From: an uncultured Burkholderiales bacterium
GTDB lineage: Bacteria > Pseudomonadota > Gammaproteobacteria > Burkholderiales > Burkholderiaceae_C
DNA length: 64,000 bases
Reading direction: 5' to 3'
Assembly: GCA_945952065.1 (NCBI GenBank)
Contig: CAMFGY010000003.1
Coordinates: forward strand, 248,001-312,000
Made by a program: the position numbers and the translations under genes. Shown here in pieces: positions 33,688 through 42,621 of the stretch (positions are counted from its first letter, which is position 1; the number at the start of each line of letters is the position of its first letter). The notes below the pieces were generated by a model. It searched no databases and had not been told where the DNA came from. It worked only from the letters and a program-made list of their open reading frames with translations.

Positions 33688-33831
33688 GGGAAAAGCCGGG
33701 CTGAGGCCGGCCAACTTTTCCTGCATGGTTTGGGCGAGCAACCAGATAATCCGTCGATGTTGGCGGGCGTTTGTGAGCCCGGCGTTTTCTATTCAAGCTG
33801 CCTTGTGCCAGCGCTTGCGGCAGGAGACAAG

Positions 33832-35907
33832 ATGAGTTTGCTTCAGTCGGATGCAGCAGCCTCAGGGTTGCTGAGTCCCTGGGCCTGGATTGCGGTCGTG
33901 GCGGTTGTCGCGGCCTTGCTGCTTTTCGTCGGCGCGGAAATACAGGGTTTGCGGGACTTGAGCCGCAAACAGCAGGTGCGTGGCAGTTGGTGGGCCTCGG
34001 CCTTGTTGATGGGGGCGGGTCTGTGGTGGCCTATGCACGCCTTGTCGGAGCGCGGCTTCGAGTCCCCGGCTGGCTTGGTCAGCGCTTGGCCTTTGTTGAG
34101 CCTGGGCCTGAGCTTGGCCTTGGCCGAGATGGTTTTGGAAGCGGTACGCCCCCGACGCGCCCGCACCTTGCATGCGCGGCTGGTGATGGGCGCCGGGGCG
34201 CTGCTCTTGTTCTTGCTGCAAGGGCAGCTGATCAGCCGGGGCCTGGCCCTGGCATGGACGCAAAAGCTCCCCGACTTGCTGGCAGCCGCTTTATTGCAAT
34301 TGGGCTTGCTGGCCTTTTTGTTGATGCCCTCGGGCCTGGGCTGGCAGGTGCGGGCTTTGCGAGCGGCCGCGGCTTTGGCCGCCGCCGCCTTGCCCTTGAT
34401 GGTTTTGTATGCCCTCGACCCGCTGTGGTTGATGGGTCTGCTGCCCTCGGTGCCTTTGAGTTTGGCATTGCTCTTGCTGGCACTGGTGGGCGCCAGCTAT
34501 GCCTTGGGCTTGATGCATTTGGCCGAGCTCACCGGCGGCGGCACCGGCTTGCGGGAGGCGCAAAACGCCGCGCTGGTGGACCCCTTGACGGGCTTGGCCA
34601 CGCGCCTGGGCTTGGAGCAGCAATTGAGCCAATTCGTGATCGAGTGCGACAAGGATGAGGGTGCCTTGGCCCTGGTCATGTTCGACTTGGACGGCTTCAA
34701 TCCTGTCAACAGCAGCTTGGGTCACGACAGCGGCGACGCCTTGCTGCGGCAGGTGGCTGAGCGTTTGCGTCATCGTTTGGGCGAGCAGGGGATTGCGGCC
34801 CGTATCGGTGGGGATGAGTTTGTGGTGCTGTTGCGCACGCCGTCGAGCAAAGAGGTCTTGGCTGATTTTGTGAATGCCACTTTGCAGGACCTGGCGCGCC
34901 CCTATGAGTTGGATCAGCGTGAACTGGCCCTGTCGGCCTCGGCTGGCATTGCCCGCTACCCTTTTGACGGCGGCAAAGCGCGTTTGCTGGGCTGCGCTGA
35001 TGCGGCCAAAAATGCGGCCAAGCGACTGGGTGGCTCTTGCTACTGCTTTTTTGCGCCGGGTATGGAAAGCGATACCCGCGAGCAGCTCGACATCCTGCGC
35101 GATTTGCGGCTGGCGATTGAGCGCAATGAACTGGAGCTGTTTTACCAGCCCAAGATTGACGCGCGCAGCGCCCAGATCACGGCCGCCGAAGCCTTGCTGC
35201 GTTGGCACCACCCCACGCGAGGCATGGTGTCGCCTGCGGTCTTCATCCCGGTGGCCGAGCGCTTTGGCTATATGCGGGAGTTGGGCAACTGGGTGATTGA
35301 TGACGCCTGTCGGCAAGCCCGGGTCTGGCGCGAAAGCGGCCTGCGCATGCGGGTGGCCATCAATTTGTCGGCCCACCAAATGCGCCAGGACGACATCATT
35401 GAGCGCATTGAGCGCGCGCTTGAGACCTACAACGTTCACCCCTCTTTGCTGACCTGCGAAATCACGGAATCGGTGGTGATGGAAAACACCCAGGCCATTC
35501 AAGAGACCTTCAAGCGTTTGGGCGAGTTGGGGGTGCACCTGTCGATTGATGACTTTGGCACCGGCTACTCCTCACTCAGCTATTTGCGTCAACTGCCGGC
35601 CAAGGAGTTGAAGGTGGACCGCGCCTTCATCACCGACATCGTCACCAGCGTGGATGCACGTGCCGTGGTGGACGCGGTGGTCAAGCTCGCCCATGCCTTG
35701 GGCCTGCGGGTGGTGGCCGAAGGGGTGGAAACCCAAGGGCAGCAGGCCATTTTGGCGGGCATGGGTTGCGACGAATTGCAGGGCTATTTGTTCGCTCGGC
35801 CGATGTCGGCCCAGGCAATTTTGCTTTGGGCCACGGAGGACAAGCACAACGCGCCGGCCTTCCGCGCCTCCTTGTTTGGTGAAACCTCGTACACCGAAAA
35901 GCTCTGA
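33832..35907 (+). CDS. Membrane-bound GGDEF-EAL protein
   Basis: The 691-residue protein has about seven N-terminal hydrophobic segments (residues 15-230). A GGDEF domain follows with an intact RIGGDEF at 324-330, then an EAL domain with AEALLRW (EAL at 453-455) and IDDFGTGYSSLSYLRQLP. Both motifs look intact, so it may make or degrade c-di-GMP, or one domain may act as a regulatory GTP-binding site. ATG 33832 is preceded by GGAG. It ends 51 bp before the SMC operon, so read-through is possible. Confidence 0.93.
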   Translation: MSLLQSDAAASGLLSPWAWIAVVAVVAALLLFVGAEIQGLRDLSRKQQVRGSWWASALLMGAGLWWPMHALSERGFESPAGLVSAWPLLSLGLSLALAEMVLEAVRPRRARTLHARLVMGAGALLLFLLQGQLISRGLALAWTQKLPDLLAAALLQLGLLAFLLMPSGLGWQVRALRAAAALAAAALPLMVLYALDPLWLMGLLPSVPLSLALLLLALVGASYALGLMHLAELTGGGTGLREAQNAALVDPLTGLATRLGLEQQLSQFVIECDKDEGALALVMFDLDGFNPVNSSLGHDSGDALLRQVAERLRHRLGEQGIAARIGGDEFVVLLRTPSSKEVLADFVNATLQDLARPYELDQRELALSASAGIARYPFDGGKARLLGCADAAKNAAKRLGGSCYCFFAPGMESDTREQLDILRDLRLAIERNELELFYQPKIDARSAQITAAEALLRWHHPTRGMVSPAVFIPVAERFGYMRELGNWVIDDACRQARVWRESGLRMRVAINLSAHQMRQDDIIERIERALETYNVHPSLLTCEITESVVMENTQAIQETFKRLGELGVHLSIDDFGTGYSSLSYLRQLPAKELKVDRAFITDIVTSVDARAVVDAVVKLAHALGLRVVAEGVETQGQQAILAGMGCDELQGYLFARPMSAQAILLWATEDKHNAPAFRASLFGETSYTEKL

Positions 35908-35958: not shown

Positions 35959-37293
35959 ATGCGGGAGAACCCAAACCCAGCGAGCGAAGACGAAGCTCGC
36001 TTTGAAGACTATTTTCGCGATGCCGTCGCCCCCAGCGAGGCCCAACTGCTGTGGCAACTGGAACGCCAAGACGGCCAAGCCGGGCTGATGGCGGCCTTGC
36101 GCGCGCTCTTTCACGGCCCGGCCAGTTTGGTCAAGCTGCGTGTCTGGGTGTTCATGGAAGTGATGGCCATGCCGGCTTCGCGCATCAGCCGCGAGGCCTT
36201 GAATCAGCACTTCCATCAGCTGCGCGATGAGCCGCTGGAGTTGGTGCTCAAACGCCTGCGCGAAGCCGATCTGCTGGCCTGGGACGGCTCTAACCAGCAA
36301 TACGGCGTCACCCCTTTGGCGCAACAACTGCTGGGGCTTTTGTCGCCCCTGGTGACCAGCAATGCCCAAGACGCCGATCTGACCTCGCTCTTGACCAATG
36401 TGGCCGGTGCCCATCAGCTCGGCACCCTGGACTCGGCGCAGCTGCAGCATTTGCAGGCCCAGCTTTCGCGCTTGTACGACGAGTTCGCGGACGCGATTGC
36501 CAGCGGCTCGGAATTCCATTTGCGGCGGGCCCGCCAGCGTTTTGGCAAGGCCCTGAGCCTGGTGGAGAAAGCCAGCGAAGCTTTGTCGGCCATCATGGTG
36601 CAAGCCCAAGAAGAGGGCAATGCCAAGCTGGAGCGCTTGGCGCGCGAGCTGGGTTTGGCGCAGGCACGGCTGCTGTCCATGGCCAGCCAGTTCAACCGGG
36701 CCTTGCAGCAGGCGGATCGGCAGCGCGTCACGCTGGGCTCCACCGGCATCACCAACACCGATGTGCGGCGCTGGTTGCAAAGCGTGCATTTCTTGGAGAA
36801 CTTGGCACTGGGGGCATTGTCCCGGCCGGTGCATCCGGTGCTGGTGGCCCAACATGAATTGCTGGACACCGCCGAGGCCGAGTTCGAGCGTGATCGACCC
36901 AAGCCCAAGGAAGCCGAGGCCTTGCCCAGCGTTCAAGCTGCGCCCGAAGGCGAACTGGCAGTGATGAGCTTGCCGCCCGAGATGAGCGTGATGCAGGCCC
37001 TGCTGACGCGCTGGACCGAGGCGGGCGAGGTCGAGCAAGACCTGGCCCCTGCTGTGCTGGGGGGCAGCTACGCGCGGGCTTCTTACCGTGCGCAATTGCT
37101 GCCACTGCTGGGCGACAAAGAAGCCCAGCATTTGAGCGGCGCCACCGGTGATATGGCCCGCCAGCCCTGGCGTGTGCGCTGGACGGCGGAACAAGGCGAG
37201 GTCGATGACGAACACATCCGCTGGATGAGCCGTGGCGTGCTGCGTGCCGCCCCTGGCCAAGAACAAGACAAGAAAGACGAGACCCAAGCATGA
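35959..37293 (+). CDS. Kleisin-like (MksF/JetA-type) protein of an SMC complex
   Basis: The 444-residue protein is mostly helical. An N-terminal part with HTH-like segments (FMEVMAMPASRISREALNQHF; LELVLKRLREADLLAWDGSNQQYGVTPLAQQLLGL) is followed by long helices (about 160-290), an acidic linker and a C-terminal winged-helix-like section. This layout matches kleisins of MukF/MksF/JetA type, which bridge two SMC heads. Assignment rests on position and architecture, not on a specific motif. It overlaps the next gene by 4 bp (ATGA at 37290), as expected for stoichiometric complexes. Confidence 0.55.
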   Translation: MRENPNPASEDEARFEDYFRDAVAPSEAQLLWQLERQDGQAGLMAALRALFHGPASLVKLRVWVFMEVMAMPASRISREALNQHFHQLRDEPLELVLKRLREADLLAWDGSNQQYGVTPLAQQLLGLLSPLVTSNAQDADLTSLLTNVAGAHQLGTLDSAQLQHLQAQLSRLYDEFADAIASGSEFHLRRARQRFGKALSLVEKASEALSAIMVQAQEEGNAKLERLARELGLAQARLLSMASQFNRALQQADRQRVTLGSTGITNTDVRRWLQSVHFLENLALGALSRPVHPVLVAQHELLDTAEAEFERDRPKPKEAEALPSVQAAPEGELAVMSLPPEMSVMQALLTRWTEAGEVEQDLAPAVLGGSYARASYRAQLLPLLGDKEAQHLSGATGDMARQPWRVRWTAEQGEVDDEHIRWMSRGVLRAAPGQEQDKKDETQA

Positions 37294-38033
37294 GCGCTGC
37301 TCTTGATGATGCCGCCGCGCTGGCGGCGCAACTGCTGGCGCGCCGCTGGCTGCCACGCAGCCACCCCTTGGTGCGCCGCGCGCTGATCGACAACGAAGTC
37401 TGGACCGCCCTGGGCCAGCGCCTGGCCGCCGTGGGTCTGCGGGTGATCGACAACCTGTATGCCGACCACATCAGCCTGGCCATGTTGCGCCCGGCCGAAG
37501 TGGCGGTGTTTGGCGAAACCGGCCTGGCCGCCAACAACAATCTGGATTTGCCGCGCGACGGTGTGGCGCTCTTGGTGGTGCTGTGGTCGCTGATCGTGCT
37601 GCCCAAGCGGCAGCGCCAGGTGGCGCGCGCCGATGCCAAGGAATTGGGCCAGAACGAAATGTTCGCCACTGACAAGCCGCTGCCCACCGCCGCCAGCGTC
37701 AGCCCGACGCTGAGCTACCGCAGCCTCTTGGCCGACTTTGGCAACCAGCTGGGCAAGAAGATGCGGCTGGACAGCAATTTGAAGCTGCTGGAACGTAACG
37801 GCTTCATCACACGGCGTGGTGAAGACATTGCCGAAGGCCCTTTGCTGGACCTGCTGCTGGACTACGACACCTTGGCGCCGCGCATTCTGGACGGTGCTTT
37901 GGGCGATGTGATGGCCCGCACCACCGATCCGGCCGTGGCCGCCGCCATTTGGCTGGCGCGCCAGCCCGAGTTGATTCCCGAAGAGGCTGTGGAAGAAGAC
38001 GCACAGCCGCTACAAGACCAAAGCGAGACCTGA
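37290..38033 (+). CDS. Kite/winged-helix (MksE/JetB-like) SMC partner
   Basis: The 247-residue protein has two winged-helix-like regions: VWTALGQRLAAVGLRVIDNLYADHISLAM, a hydrophobic helix GVALLVVLWSLIVLPKRQRQ, and LLADFGNQLGKKMRLDSNLKLLERNGFI. These features are those of MukE/MksE/JetB 'kite' proteins, which bind the kleisin centrally. It sits between the kleisin-like and SMC genes, overlapping both (4 bp and 1 bp). The family assignment is from architecture and order. Confidence 0.55.
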   Translation: MSAALDDAAALAAQLLARRWLPRSHPLVRRALIDNEVWTALGQRLAAVGLRVIDNLYADHISLAMLRPAEVAVFGETGLAANNNLDLPRDGVALLVVLWSLIVLPKRQRQVARADAKELGQNEMFATDKPLPTAASVSPTLSYRSLLADFGNQLGKKMRLDSNLKLLERNGFITRRGEDIAEGPLLDLLLDYDTLAPRILDGALGDVMARTTDPAVAAAIWLARQPELIPEEAVEEDAQPLQDQSET

Positions 38034-40852
38034 TGTTTCACCTGCAATCGCTGGAACTGCTGCACTGGGACTACATCCAGCGCGTGACCATGCCGCTGGA
38101 CGGCGCCATCATCACCATCGCCGGCCCGAACGGCTCGGGCAAGACCACCTTGCTCGATGCCATGCGCACCCTGCTGGGCCTGGAATGCTCGGGCGGGCGC
38201 ACCTACAAGACTTATGCGCGGCACGCCAATGCCGAGAGCGCCTGGCTGCGCGCCTTGGTGGACAACCGCCCGCGTGGGCGCCAAAACAGCTCGCGGCCCT
38301 TCGCCAGCTCGCTGTTCTATTCCGATCAAGTCACCTTGGCCTGCCGCATTGAACGGCATGGGGGGGACTGGCAGCGCCGCTATCTGATGGTGGAGGGCGT
38401 GCAGACCATTGAGCAAATGAGCGAGATGGCCGAGAAGGAATGGATGGGCATTGAGGCTTGGCGCCGCCGTCTGGAGGCCGCCGGCCTGACCCGCGCCATC
38501 GGCCGGGTGTTGGCGCTGGAGCAGGGCCAAACCGACCGCCTGTGCGAGCTCTCGCCCAAGGAATTGCTGCGTCTTGTGTTCGAGGTCTTTGGCGACCAAG
38601 AGGTGTTGGACCGCTACGACCAAGCGCGCAGCCACCAGCAGCATTTGCTCAAAGAGGTGGAGCAGGCCGCGCATGAGTTGTCGCACACCCAGGCACAGCT
38701 GTCGGATCTGGCCAACCGCGTGACCAGCTATCAGCAGTACCAGCTGCGCCTGCGCGAGCGCGAGCGCTTGTCCACGGAAGTCTTGCCGGTCTTGCAGTGG
38801 AGCGAGGCGCGGACCCGCATTGCCCAGGGCTTGCGCGAGCTGCATCGCCAGCGCCTCTTCGCCGGGGCGGACGCGCGCAGCCAGGCCGCCAAGCGGGCCG
38901 AGTTGCTGGCCTTGTTTGAGGCCTCGCAGCAGGCCAAGAACCGCTTGCTGGAGCTGGAGCAAGAGCGCAAAAACAACCGTGCCGCCTTTGACGCGGCCCG
39001 CGAAGCCGAGCGACCGATGGAGCTTTTGGCCAAGCGCGAAGAAGAGCTGCGCGGGCTGGCCGCCGTCGAGACCGATGCGCAAGAGCTGGCCCAGCGCGTG
39101 GAAGACCTGAGCGCGCGCCAGCACCAGCTGCGCGAGAGCTTCACCCGCGCCAATGACCAGCGCAACAAGGCGCAGGCCGCCATGGATGCCTTGGCCGGCC
39201 AGCGCTTGCCGCCGCCGCCGGCGGAGGTCACACGCTTCCGGCGCGCGCTGGATGACGCCGGCATCGCCCACCATGTCTTGGCCGACTGCATTGACATTGC
39301 CGATGAAGCCTGGCGTGCAGCAGCCGAGGGCATGTTGCGGCCCTCGCGCTGGGTGGTGGTATTGGCGCGCAGCGGCGATGAGGCCCATGCCTTCGCGCTG
39401 GCCTCGCGCGAGCGCTATCGCCACTATGTGGTGGCCGATGCCGAGCAGGCGCCGGCCGTGGTACCGCCGGACTCATTGCTGGCCGCTTTGAAAATCAATG
39501 CCAAGCTGCCCGGCTGGCTATTGCGTCAGCTCGGCGCCATCCGCCGTGTCAAAGACACCGAGGCTGGCGCGCGCACCGGGGGCGAGTGGATCACGCCGGA
39601 TGCTTACTACCGCGACGGGCGCGGCGGCCGCAGCTTGTGGGTGGAGCCGCGCGACTTCCAGTTTGGCGTTTCGGCGCTGGATTCGCGCCGTCAGGCGCTG
39701 GAAAAAGAGTTGGCTCGTTATGACGCTGAACTGACCCGTTTGGCCAAAGAGCAGGCCGAGGTGGAACGTCAGTTCAAAGACGCCCAGCGCGCCGCGCAAG
39801 GCCACAAGGCCGCCAAAGAATTGGGCGAACGCGCCGAAGAATTTGCTGCCGCGCGCGAGCGGCTGCCGGCCCTGCGGCAAGCGCGTATTGAAGCATCCGC
39901 TCGCATGAGTTCGCTGGAGGCCGAGCATGACCGCGCGCTGACGGCCCACACCCGCAGCGAGCGCGACTATGAGTCGGCCCAGCAAAGCCTGAAGGCCAGC
40001 GAAGACAATGTCGGCCGGGCGCAGCGCGAGCACGCGGCCAAGCTGGCCGATCTGCGTGCCCAGGCCAAGGCCTCGCGCGAGGCGCGCGCGCGCTTCCCGG
40101 CCGCCTGGGTGCAGCCGTCCACGCTGCAAGCCTTGCGCGATGAGTTTGAAAATGCCAAACAGGCTGAGATCGCCGGCCGCCATGTGCAGGCCGAGTTGGA
40201 CAACGGCGTCTGGGAAACCGACCCGCAGGTGCAAGACCGCCACCACCGCATGAACGCTGCGGTGCTGGAGCAGACCAGCCAGTTGGAAGACCGCCGTGCC
40301 AGCAATGAGATGGCCCGCATCGCGGCCTTCAACGCCCGCGAACGCTATATCGACGTCTTGCGTGCCACGGTGCGGCGCTACAAAAAGAATGTGCAGGAGC
40401 TGGGCGAGTTGGCCGGCGTGATGGCGCAGGCGGAACTGCCGCATCTGGACAATGACGATATGGTGTTGGCCCAGGCCGGCCTGCAGGTCAAGTTCAATTT
40501 CGACGGCAAGGGCGAAGTGGGCCTCAACGATGGCGAAGCCTCCGGCGGCCAACAGGTGCTCAAGAGCCTGATCCTCTTGGTGGGCTTGATGAAAGACGAC
40601 GACTCGCCGGGCGGCTTTGTCTTCATCGACGAGCCTTTTGCCCATTTGGATGTGCGCAATATCCAGCTGGTCGGCCACTTCCTGCGCTCGACCCGGGCGC
40701 AATACTTGCTGACCACGCCGATCACGCACAACGTCGAAGTTTTCGAGCCCAGCGAGATCACCCTGGTCACCAGCAAGAAGCCGCGCGGCGAGCGCTGGGC
40801 GCCGCCGATTGCGGTGCTGGCGCGCCGGCCTGAGAAGTCGGTTTACGGCTGA
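38033..40852 (+). CDS. SMC-family ATPase (MksB/JetC-like)
   Basis: The 939-residue protein has an N-terminal ATPase half with Walker A GPNGSGKTTL at about 31-40 and a Q-loop-like EQGQTDRL (about 163-170). Coiled coil spans about 195-395, and a globular hinge about 400-545 contains YYRDGRGGRSLWVEPRDFQFG. The return coiled coil is about 550-750. The C-terminal half has an ABC-type signature EASGGQQVL (about 835-843) and Walker B FVFIDEPFAHLD (about 862-873). It is shorter than SMC/MukB (1100-1480). MksB and JetC condensins vary in this range. It starts in the stop codon of the kite-like gene (TGATG). DNA loop extrusion or compaction is the expected activity. Confidence 0.9.
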   Translation: MFHLQSLELLHWDYIQRVTMPLDGAIITIAGPNGSGKTTLLDAMRTLLGLECSGGRTYKTYARHANAESAWLRALVDNRPRGRQNSSRPFASSLFYSDQVTLACRIERHGGDWQRRYLMVEGVQTIEQMSEMAEKEWMGIEAWRRRLEAAGLTRAIGRVLALEQGQTDRLCELSPKELLRLVFEVFGDQEVLDRYDQARSHQQHLLKEVEQAAHELSHTQAQLSDLANRVTSYQQYQLRLRERERLSTEVLPVLQWSEARTRIAQGLRELHRQRLFAGADARSQAAKRAELLALFEASQQAKNRLLELEQERKNNRAAFDAAREAERPMELLAKREEELRGLAAVETDAQELAQRVEDLSARQHQLRESFTRANDQRNKAQAAMDALAGQRLPPPPAEVTRFRRALDDAGIAHHVLADCIDIADEAWRAAAEGMLRPSRWVVVLARSGDEAHAFALASRERYRHYVVADAEQAPAVVPPDSLLAALKINAKLPGWLLRQLGAIRRVKDTEAGARTGGEWITPDAYYRDGRGGRSLWVEPRDFQFGVSALDSRRQALEKELARYDAELTRLAKEQAEVERQFKDAQRAAQGHKAAKELGERAEEFAAARERLPALRQARIEASARMSSLEAEHDRALTAHTRSERDYESAQQSLKASEDNVGRAQREHAAKLADLRAQAKASREARARFPAAWVQPSTLQALRDEFENAKQAEIAGRHVQAELDNGVWETDPQVQDRHHRMNAAVLEQTSQLEDRRASNEMARIAAFNARERYIDVLRATVRRYKKNVQELGELAGVMAQAELPHLDNDDMVLAQAGLQVKFNFDGKGEVGLNDGEASGGQQVLKSLILLVGLMKDDDSPGGFVFIDEPFAHLDVRNIQLVGHFLRSTRAQYLLTTPITHNVEVFEPSEITLVTSKKPRGERWAPPIAVLARRPEKSVYG

Positions 40853-40868
40853 GTCGCGAGGTCTGGTG

Positions 40869-41561
40869 ATGTCTCGGGCCGCGCGCTTGCTGGACTTGAT
40901 GCAGCTTTTGCGTCGCCACCGCCAGCCCATCCAAGGGGCGGCGCTGGCGCAGCAGCTGGGCATCAGCCTGCGCACGCTGTACCGCGATATCGCCACACTG
41001 CAAGCCCAGGGCGCGCAGATCGAAGGGGAGGCGGGCCTGGGCTATGTGCTCAAACCGGGCTTTGTGCTGCCGCCGCTGATGTTCAGTGCGGATGAGTTAG
41101 AGGCCTTGGTGCTGGGCTCGCGCTGGGTGGCCGGGCGCAGTGATGACGCCGCTTTGGCCGAGGCCGCGCGTCAAGCGCTGGCGAAGATTTCGGCCGTCTT
41201 GCCGGCTGATTTGCGCTTTGAGTTGGACAGCGCGGCCTTGTTGGTGGGGCCGGGCGAGGCTTTGCGTGCGGACAGTTCGGTGCAAGCCGGCCTGCGCTCG
41301 GCGCTGCGCAATGAGCGCAAAGTGACACTGCAATACCAGGACCTCAAGGGCGTGACCAGCGAACGCGTGGTCTGGCCTTTCGCGCTGGGTTTTTTTGATT
41401 CGGCCCGGGTCTTGGTGGCCTGGTGTGAGCTGCGCCAAGCAAGGCGCAACTTCCGACTGGATCGCATTGCATCGATGCAAATCATGGCGGAGCGCTACCC
41501 GCGCCCGCGTCAGGCCTTGCTGGCCGAGTGGCGTGCGCAAGAAGGCATTGAGCCGCAGTAG
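40869..41561 (+). CDS. HTH-WYL domain transcriptional regulator
   Basis: The 230-residue protein has an N-terminal winged HTH (LLRRHRQPIQGAALAQQLGISLRTLYRDIATLQAQGAQI) and a WYL domain (VTLQYQDLKG, VVWPFALGFFDSARVLVAWCEL) ending RNFRLDRI. It resembles YafY-type regulators, which sense nucleic-acid-like ligands in some cases. A GAGG sits 7 bp before ATG 40869. It starts 16 bp after the SMC gene and is probably in the same transcript. WYL regulators often accompany defence genes, which supports the reading of this block as a regulated SMC system. Confidence 0.9.
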   Translation: MSRAARLLDLMQLLRRHRQPIQGAALAQQLGISLRTLYRDIATLQAQGAQIEGEAGLGYVLKPGFVLPPLMFSADELEALVLGSRWVAGRSDDAALAEAARQALAKISAVLPADLRFELDSAALLVGPGEALRADSSVQAGLRSALRNERKVTLQYQDLKGVTSERVVWPFALGFFDSARVLVAWCELRQARRNFRLDRIASMQIMAERYPRPRQALLAEWRAQEGIEPQ

Positions 41562-41675: not shown

Positions 41676-42056
41676 ATGAACCAGCAGCCCAATTTTCTTT
41701 TGCTTTATGTCGCCAGCCCGGTCGAGAGCGCAGCCTTCTACGCCCGCGTCTTGGGCCGCTCGCCGGTTGAAAGCTCGCCTACCTTCGCCATGTTTGCACT
41801 GGATGGGGGCCTGATGCTGGGCTTGTGGGCGCGTCAGACGGTGCTGCCGGCAGTGGCAGGACCCTCGCCCCATGCCAGCGGCGAGTTGGCGTTTGCCCAA
41901 GCGAGCAAGGAAGCGGTGGATGCCGTCTTTGGCACTTGGCGCGAACTGGGCCTGCCCTTCATTCAGTCGCCAACGATGATGGACTTCGGCTACACCTTCA
42001 CCGCCATCGACCCCGACGGACATCGCCTGCGTGTGTTTGCGCCAAATGGGCAGTGA
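41676..42056 (+). CDS. VOC-superfamily (glyoxalase-like) protein
   Basis: The 126-residue protein has the vicinal-oxygen-chelate fold pattern: [18 protein letters not shown] at the start, an acidic beta-hairpin region [16 protein letters not shown] and C-terminal [12 protein letters not shown]. Members bind metals or small ligands and include drug-resistance and glyoxalase-like proteins. The substrate is not predictable. A CAGGAG precedes ATG 41676. The EVE gene start is 7 bp downstream of its stop. Confidence 0.88.
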
Positions 42057-42063
42057 GCAAGCC

Positions 42064-42621
42064 ATGCGCGCGCAAACCTTGATGCAGAGCGCCTTTTTGC
42101 CGGGCTTTGAACCGGCGGCCCCGGCTTTGCTGCCTGAAGCAAGCGGGGCTCATGGGGGGCGCTGCTGGATTGCCGTGGCCAGCGCCGAACATGTGCGGAT
42201 CGGCCGCGCCCAAGGTTTTATGCAGGTCTGCCACGGCAAGGCGGCGCCGCTGCGGCGATTGCGGCCCGGCGACTGGGTGGCTTACTACTCGCCCAGCCGA
42301 CAGTTCGGCGGCAAGGACCGTTTGCAGGCCTTCACCGCGCTCGGGCGGGTGCGCGCACGCGAACCCTATGCTTTTGATATGGGCGGCGGCTTTGTCCCGT
42401 TTCGTCGCGATGTGGATTGGATCCTGCCCGCGCAAGAGGCTCCGATTCAAGCCTGGCTGGAGCAGCTGTCGTTCTCGCGGGGGCAGCCGCACTGGGGCTA
42501 TCAGCTGCGCTTTGGTTTGTTTGAAGTCAGCCCGCAGGACATGGCTTTGATTGCACAAGCCATGGGGGTGGGGGCTGCATGGCAAGCCGCCGCGCAGGCC
42601 CTCGCGCAAGACAGCGCCTGA
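42064..42621 (+). CDS. EVE domain protein
   Basis: The 185-residue protein has an EVE (PUA-like) domain spanning about 35-165: [42 protein letters not shown]-like strand and a C-terminal [17 protein letters not shown] domains bind modified bases (methylated cytosine or adenine) in several restriction or defence contexts. The start at 42064 was chosen; in-frame ATG 42046 and GTG 42031 lie within the VOC gene's end. Its neighbours are VOC and the SMC/WYL block. Confidence 0.8.

Follow-up and report, generated by a model that had tools for sequence, protein, structure and literature searches.

Among described SMC systems, those closest to the locus considered here are type I Wadjet (JetABCD, or MksBEFG), which includes the Toprim nuclease JetD, and MksBEF of Pseudomonas aeruginosa, which by published descriptions has no JetD, has an MksB with short coiled coils and coexists with SMC-ScpAB (PMC10586767, PMC4255302 and PMC7485682). 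According to two of these papers, MksBEF contributes to packing and segregating the chromosome (PMC7485682), structures of JetD exist, and a JetD-free Mks complex with a proposed origin from JetABCD has already been published (PMC10586767). We analysed a stretch of 64,000 nucleotides, here called the window, from an uncultured Burkholderiales bacterium (assembly GCA_945952065.1, contig CAMFGY010000003.1, positions 248,001 to 312,000), in which three overlapping genes encode a putative kleisin, a putative kite protein and an SMC ATPase. This operon is best read as an SMC complex from an apparently unclassified Wadjet-like lineage, and we think it fairly likely that it is a nuclease-free Wadjet/Mks-like loop extruder which lost jetD, kept its motor and now most likely serves as a second condensin.

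The kleisin gene (JetA/MksF/MukF-like) extends from the ATG at 35959 to the TGA ending at 37293 (444 amino acids, aa), the kite gene (JetB/MksE-like) from the ATG at 37290, which overlaps the kleisin stop as ATGA, to the TGA ending at 38033 (247 aa), and the SMC gene (JetC/MksB-like) from the ATG at 38033, overlapping the kite stop as TGATG, to the TGA ending at 40852 (939 aa); these, the SMC motifs and the downstream genes given below all lie on the forward strand. The reading frames confirmed both overlaps, as well as the position of a WYL gene 16 bp behind the SMC gene, all of which had been claimed in an initial annotation made from the sequence. The kleisin-kite-SMC order was found again in relatives, most of them with the same 4-bp kleisin/kite overlap and with a kite/SMC junction that is mostly a 1-bp overlap or a few bases between the genes. 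Chance does not account for the three reading frames, because this arrangement recurs and 15 of the 18 genomes sampled from the genus carry an SMC orthologue. The window comes from a genome of Paucibacter/Roseateles type. Its SMC shares 97% identity with the Paucibacter sp. Y2R2-4 protein (locus L045; L, G and C numbers are our own for loci, genomes and contigs), and its annotated length stood, with 120 of 123 family frames measuring 933 to 947 aa and the remainder cut or broken. It matched Pfam SMC_N (E-value 1.2e-14) and the PADLOC JetC1 models (best E 4.9e-25, mainly across the middle of the protein). The Walker A, signature and Walker B motifs, described as intact in the initial annotation, are kept across an alignment of 23 sequences, the window included: in Walker A (GPNGSGKTT, residues 31–39, 38123 to 38149) G31 and N33 to T39 are invariant and P32 is variable, and both the signature ASGGQ (residues 836–840, 40538 to 40552) and Walker B VFIDEP (residues 863–868, 40619 to 40636) are invariant. 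The unusual hinge that had also been proposed is plausible only: in a profile search against solved structures, residues 342–588 or thereabouts (39056 to 39796) matched the Smc chain 4rsj_A (E 8.5e-4), presumably a hinge construct of Smc, which makes it plausible that the middle region holds a hinge.

For the kite, whose predicted structure had a predicted local distance difference test score (pLDDT) of 63.3, Foldseek returned just three matches at E≤0.001, 8as8_C (4.2e-5), 8dk1_F and 8dk1_E. All are chains of JetABC entries, of 176 to 195 residues and assigned to JetB by size, and they matched with probability 1.00 and template modelling scores (TM-scores) of 0.26 to 0.35. The Pfam family DUF4194 was detected in 19 of 41 aligned kite members at E≤0.01 (best 2.4e-6), the score of the window's own kite lying below the curated cut-off. 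The kleisin model (pLDDT 77.7, predicted TM-score 0.41) appears, as read from its element list, to consist of an N-terminal winged helix, a helical middle and a C-terminal winged helix. Foldseek gave it no match at E≤0.001; ranked first was 8q72_E (E 7.4e-3, TM-score 0.17), a chain of 466 residues from a JetABCD entry, assigned to JetA by size, and MukE-MukF entries followed weakly in second and third place. In these models, then, the best fold matches are Wadjet JetABC(D) chains, clear for the kite and weak for the kleisin. A Pfam and NCBIfam search with the kleisin gave nothing below E 0.05, and the kleisin and kite profiles found no relative among solved structures. When the hidden Markov model searches suggested by the initial annotation were run, JetC1 matched as given above, JetB matched weakly (JetB1 in 11 and JetB3 in 4 of 41 kites, best E 8.8e-4), and JetA did not match at all (none of 41 kleisins at E≤0.01). 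Because the kleisin matches no JetA model and the kite matches JetB models only weakly, the lineage, for which the models of PADLOC-DB 2.0.0 give only partial coverage, is probably missed by defence finders.

The canonical SMC and ScpA of the window's cell are encoded by separate genes on contigs C7 and C34 of its 74-contig genome. The operon is therefore distinct from these canonical genes, and an identity with the ordinary Smc-ScpAB is ruled out. Together with the kite fold matches and DUF4194, this backs the original proposal of a three-gene SMC complex of Mks/Wadjet type without a nuclease.

To place the SMC among known systems we built a tree of SMC heads, taking 230 aa from each end of 19 family members, 10 JetC1, 2 JetC2, 5 short MksB, 1 MukB and the cell's SMC, the reference groups being chosen by position and size. 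The family formed a clade of its own (100/99), as did JetC1, JetC2 and short MksB; the deeper order is unsettled, with long branches meeting. Profile-profile scores of the SMC were 99.2 with JetC1, 98.7 with short MksB and 78.4 with MukB, placing it close to the first two and at a greater distance from MukB. Against reference proteins the family SMC profile gave one match (L164, E 2.5e-5), the kleisin, kite and JetD profiles gave none, and the candidate fourth gene of L164 had no match. The profile-profile comparison of the family JetD with the JetD1 group (0.1%) says little, because one of the two reference frames that were read stop to stop and re-tested (L167, a presumed type I JetD) matched nothing, the other (L173) being JetD1; among the PADLOC controls, JetA2, JetB2 and JetD2 of L286 and JetD1 of L173 scored at E below 1e-130, and L167 did not score. 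The family thus resembles type I Wadjet in gene order and in the kite fold match, and in some relatives also in a Toprim nuclease behind the SMC that has conserved acidic residues and is matched by JetD1 models; it differs in that the window has no such nuclease, in that JetC is 1115 to 1223 aa long (ten frames) and in its separate head clade. Type II likewise combines a gene for an SMC-type ATPase with its partners and with JetD, but its SMC frames are 1377 and 1380 aa and its heads likewise form a separate clade; from both types the family differs in its poor matches to JetA and JetB models. With type III there are only the four JetB3 matches among family kites and no JetA match, and a JetB3 search for a type III locus found none in 321 genomes or in any control. 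The SMC heads of five short-SMC operons defined by PF21980 (MksE family) form another clade, and PF21980 had no match in the window's genome, the kite being unmatched at E≤1. One of these five short MksB operons seems to carry a JetD-like gene (L165, 3410–4735, E 1.6e-5), so members of the short-MksB family, too, may differ in whether they have the nuclease. MukBEF is set apart from the family by a MukB of 1508 aa (L161, one frame, assigned by size) with only a short local profile match, and by the SMC and ScpA which the window's cell keeps.

The absence of an MksG/JetD nuclease, as reported in the initial annotation, was borne out. PF09983, JetD profile A1 and JetD2 each gave no match in the 74 contigs of the window's genome, and the gap between SMC and WYL (40853 to 40868), which corresponds to the jetD slot of some relatives, is at 16 bp too short to hold a nuclease remnant. 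The JetD profile had no match in the loci of the window's clade, and across all 18 genus genomes it turned up no nuclease in trans. The nuclease does belong to the family's repertoire, however: in a minority of relatives, a divergent JetD gene stands right after the SMC. When the neighbours of 55 chosen loci were clustered, a protein of about 400 aa stood directly behind the SMC in 8, and no other gene family occurred beside it in more than 4 (crude gene calls). All six of these proteins that were tested matched PADLOC JetD (best E per protein 1.4e-9, 4.2e-6, 4.2e-16, 1.2e-21, 3.5e-12 and 2.2e-13), and one of the six matched Pfam JetD_C or DUF2399 over the cut-off. The Toprim acidic residues E266, D315 and D317 (L073 numbering; E...D-x-D) are invariant in 12 aligned members, and against solved structures the JetD profile aligned with topoisomerase VI A (E 0.052) across these residues. 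The profile was run on 63 genomes, comprising the 18 of the genus and 45 others of the order with a long SMC match, and matched strongly in 9, in 8 of them beside the SMC and in G148 with the match divided by a contig end; G195 had a match of 49 positions only, and G063 an additional weaker match on another contig, probably from a second system. We then scored 123 loci, 44 unnamed and 79 named (from a scan of named genomes in which 205 relatives were confirmed and the best 80 kept), and found JetD right after the SMC in 26, its match starting no more than 138 bp after that of the SMC. In the JetD-negative loci the profile revealed no hidden divergent JetD. A Toprim pattern likewise found none in 97 such loci, a weak negative because this crude pattern missed type I JetD in the reference loci (where it found only an implausible frame in L163) and because some loci have little downstream sequence.

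Close relatives that differ in jetD were compared directly. In L073 and L074, flanks that are 91–95% identical enclose 1223 bp with jetD in the former and 22 bp in the latter; in L114 and L101 (flanks 93–95% identical) the lengths are 1354 bp and 71 bp, with jetD missing in L101; and between L103 and L104 (flanks 87–88% identical) jetD is gone and roughly 0.9–1.8 kb of other DNA is in its place. L074 and L101 are metagenome bins, so an assembly error is possible there; L103 is not labelled a bin. On a 5.47-Mb contig, L181 retains about 48 jetD codons. By eye, this remnant enters seemingly palindrome-rich repeat copies (about 10340–11450 of L181), as if a repeat insertion had broken the gene. 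Taken with the tree described below, these comparisons indicate that jetD was most likely lost in the window's clade, and they suggest repeated loss elsewhere in the family.

The core is under purifying selection without jetD. Ratios of nonsynonymous to synonymous substitution rates (dN/dS) were 0.014–0.212 for the kleisin, 0.006–0.166 for the kite and 0.019–0.171 for the SMC in 15 pairs chosen by hand, of which 14 lack JetD and one, L073/L074, is mixed; for five JetD-positive pairs they were 0.063–0.155, 0.070–0.233 and 0.041–0.116, respectively. Constraint on the core is thus of similar strength whether or not the nuclease is present, in the sense that the ranges overlap, with no statistical test behind the comparison.

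By analogy with its family, the complex would have a kleisin that carries kite subunits and bridges two SMC heads, and ATP hydrolysis would drive DNA loop extrusion. The relatives point to an ancestor that was a four-gene JetABCD-like system with a Toprim nuclease encoded right downstream of the SMC; tree and flanks are best fitted if the nuclease gene then disappeared from the window's clade and, on repeated occasions, from other branches, with the motor left intact. At present the complex would most likely act as a second condensin beside the canonical SMC, organising or segregating the chromosome as P. aeruginosa MksBEF does; of the readings offered in the initial annotation, the nuclease-free part stood, and the condensin role is favoured by that analogy. 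We propose more tentatively, and would not be surprised to see it fail, that this is an unclassified short-armed Wadjet-like lineage which has shed its nuclease repeatedly, so that an anti-plasmid machine became a resident condensin, with recent intermediates among its members. If true, the family would be a living series of the defence-to-housekeeping step proposed for MksBEF. It offers a natural test case for a defence machine possibly turning into a chromosome organiser, and the idea is directly testable because JetD-positive and JetD-negative operons occur in relatives with closely similar flanks (L073/L074, L114/L101), which opens the question whether the core folds the chromosome before nuclease loss, only after it, or both. 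A literature search covering titles and the beginnings of abstracts, with subscription papers outside its scope, found no paper on the lineage or on its repeated, partly recent losses.

Several observations weigh against the main reading, that of a nuclease-free second condensin derived by loss of jetD. No residues separate JetD-positive from JetD-negative cores apart from one conservative kite site, and 3 of the 18 genomes of the genus do not have the system. In C. glutamicum, MksBEFG is reported to make no contribution to chromosome folding (PMC7022226). The assignment of the proteins is affected as well: 5 of 41 kleisins match PADLOC LeoA (best E 7.7e-5), the TM-scores of the kite and kleisin structure matches are low (0.16–0.35), profile-profile comparison of kleisin and kite with the type I, short Mks and Muk groups gave nothing, and although JetD structures exist, a search of solved structures with the JetD profile recovered none of them at E≤1, yielding only the topoisomerase VI A match and an unrelated repressor.

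The distribution of the system bears on whether it might still serve defence, the core extruding incoming circular DNA and silencing it without cutting or handing it to a host nuclease encoded elsewhere. In the order, 82 of 300 genomes had an SMC match at E≤0.001, of which 46 (the window's included) covered most of the length with E below 1e-100 and the remaining 36 had short matches only; in the phylum, 6 of 398 genomes, again including the window's, matched at E≤1e-30. Such patchiness outside the genus fits defence as well as housekeeping and counts to that extent against a resident condensin. A continuing defence role also draws support from the JetD-positive relatives, which resemble plasmid-restriction systems. 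On the other hand, the SMC is present in 15 of the 18 genus genomes, 11 of the 13 named loci in that clade of the tree to which the window belongs share one upstream neighbour, and dN/dS is low. Furthermore, no JetD-type gene was found in trans in those 18 genomes, and no other family accompanies the SMC in more than 4 of the 55 clustered loci, crude as those gene calls were. We regard a continuing defence role as unlikely, though worth keeping in mind.

It is less probable still that an ancestrally nuclease-free condensin gained JetD several times, with the window retaining the ancestral state and defence being derived. The SMC tree has 122 rows (the window was added, and two loci were left out because their SMC match was short), of which 26 are JetD-positive, 93 JetD-negative, 1 a remnant and 2 too poor in downstream DNA, leaving 120 that are determinable. 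JetD-positive rows fall on both sides of the midpoint, the JetD states require at least 10 changes, and 17 losses result if JetD is placed at the midpoint root and no regain is allowed; the tree was made by a quick method without a mixture model and gave long-branch warnings, and its midpoint root is a drawing convention. Counts on such an unrooted tree cannot tell gain from loss, and most rows (94 of 120, counting the remnant) have no intact JetD, both of which speak for gain and against our interpretation. A gain is harder to reconcile with the use of one slot in all 26 JetD-positive loci, with the remnant in L181 and with the co-divergence of JetD and SMC, whose pairwise distances correlated with r=0.887 over 25 of the 26 loci (truncated L216 was left out), a value reached in none of 2000 permutations. 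The correlation within the nine Roseateles-like loci was 0.87. Within the eight Herbaspirillum-like loci it was only 0.39, a further point for the opposite view; the JetDs of L114 and L118 branch away from their sister loci and the SMCs do not, a possible nuclease exchange in Herbaspirillum. Of the two members from other orders, L248 carries JetD behind its SMC, which again speaks against gain, and L249 does not. Among the 17 named JetD-positive loci, 4 (L086, L087, L089 and L090) have the common upstream neighbour within 8 kb, as do 29 of the remaining 62 named loci; because it thus occurs in both states, JetD-positive and JetD-negative operons both occur at one genomic place, the other 13 JetD-positive loci being without it.

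Downstream of the operon lie a WYL/helix-turn-helix regulator (ATG at 40869 to TAG ending at 41561, 230 aa; Pfam HTH_11 and WYL), a glyoxalase/VOC protein (41676 to 42056; Pfam Glyoxalase, E 8.3e-9) and an EVE-domain protein (42031 to 42621; Pfam EVE, E 7.2e-14). In 71 of the 79 named loci at least 2.9 kb could be read behind the SMC; a WYL gene lay within 3 kb downstream in 10 of these, all in the window's clade of 14 tree rows, and did not in 61. A glyoxalase gene followed WYL in all 10. The spacing between hit ends was 16–38 bp in 8 of them, 274 bp in L046 and 1539 bp in L049. Among 18 WYL loci away from an SMC, a glyoxalase gene adjoined WYL within 1.5-kb flanks in L264, L265 and L266, which are three of the four such loci with at least 60% identity, and L264 has the series WYL-glyoxalase-EVE. 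G030 and G021 own both genes, with WYL on another contig or 1.6 Mb from the SMC. WYL thus travels with its downstream genes more than with the SMC, and this linkage supports taking WYL, glyoxalase and EVE as bystanders, outside the SMC system. The suggestion that WYL is the regulator and EVE the alternative effector of a new four- to six-gene defence unit, for which the shared strand and the short gaps in the window and the 8 close loci could be cited, is largely refuted by WYL's absence near most SMC genes, its wide gaps in L046 and L049, the WYL-glyoxalase pairs without an adjoining SMC and the distant copies in G030 and G021, and we consider it extremely improbable; on the linkage in relatives we reject both proposed roles. 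Of what the initial annotation had suggested surveying in homologous loci, the lack of JetD was found in most (26 of 120 are JetD-positive), but not the retention of WYL. Its label of a four-gene operon fits the window only, the fourth gene being the unstable part.

Promoter-like sites numbered 0 against 0.7 in shuffled sequence, and terminator-like sites 7 against 6.7. Upstream, a GGDEF-EAL gene (33730–35907) ends 51 bp before the kleisin gene; a relative with at least 66% identity stood upstream in 6 of the 79 named loci, and it looks like a bystander too. Finally, 2 of 72,556 plasmid records matched the SMC at E≤1e-20. Two Variovorax plasmids (L281, 6025–7488, and L282, 6016–7389) carry a family SMC gene that is truncated next to an IS1071 transposase gene: the front half of the SMC is preserved in one record and the back half in the other, where a JetD-type gene labelled just "hypothetical protein" comes after it.

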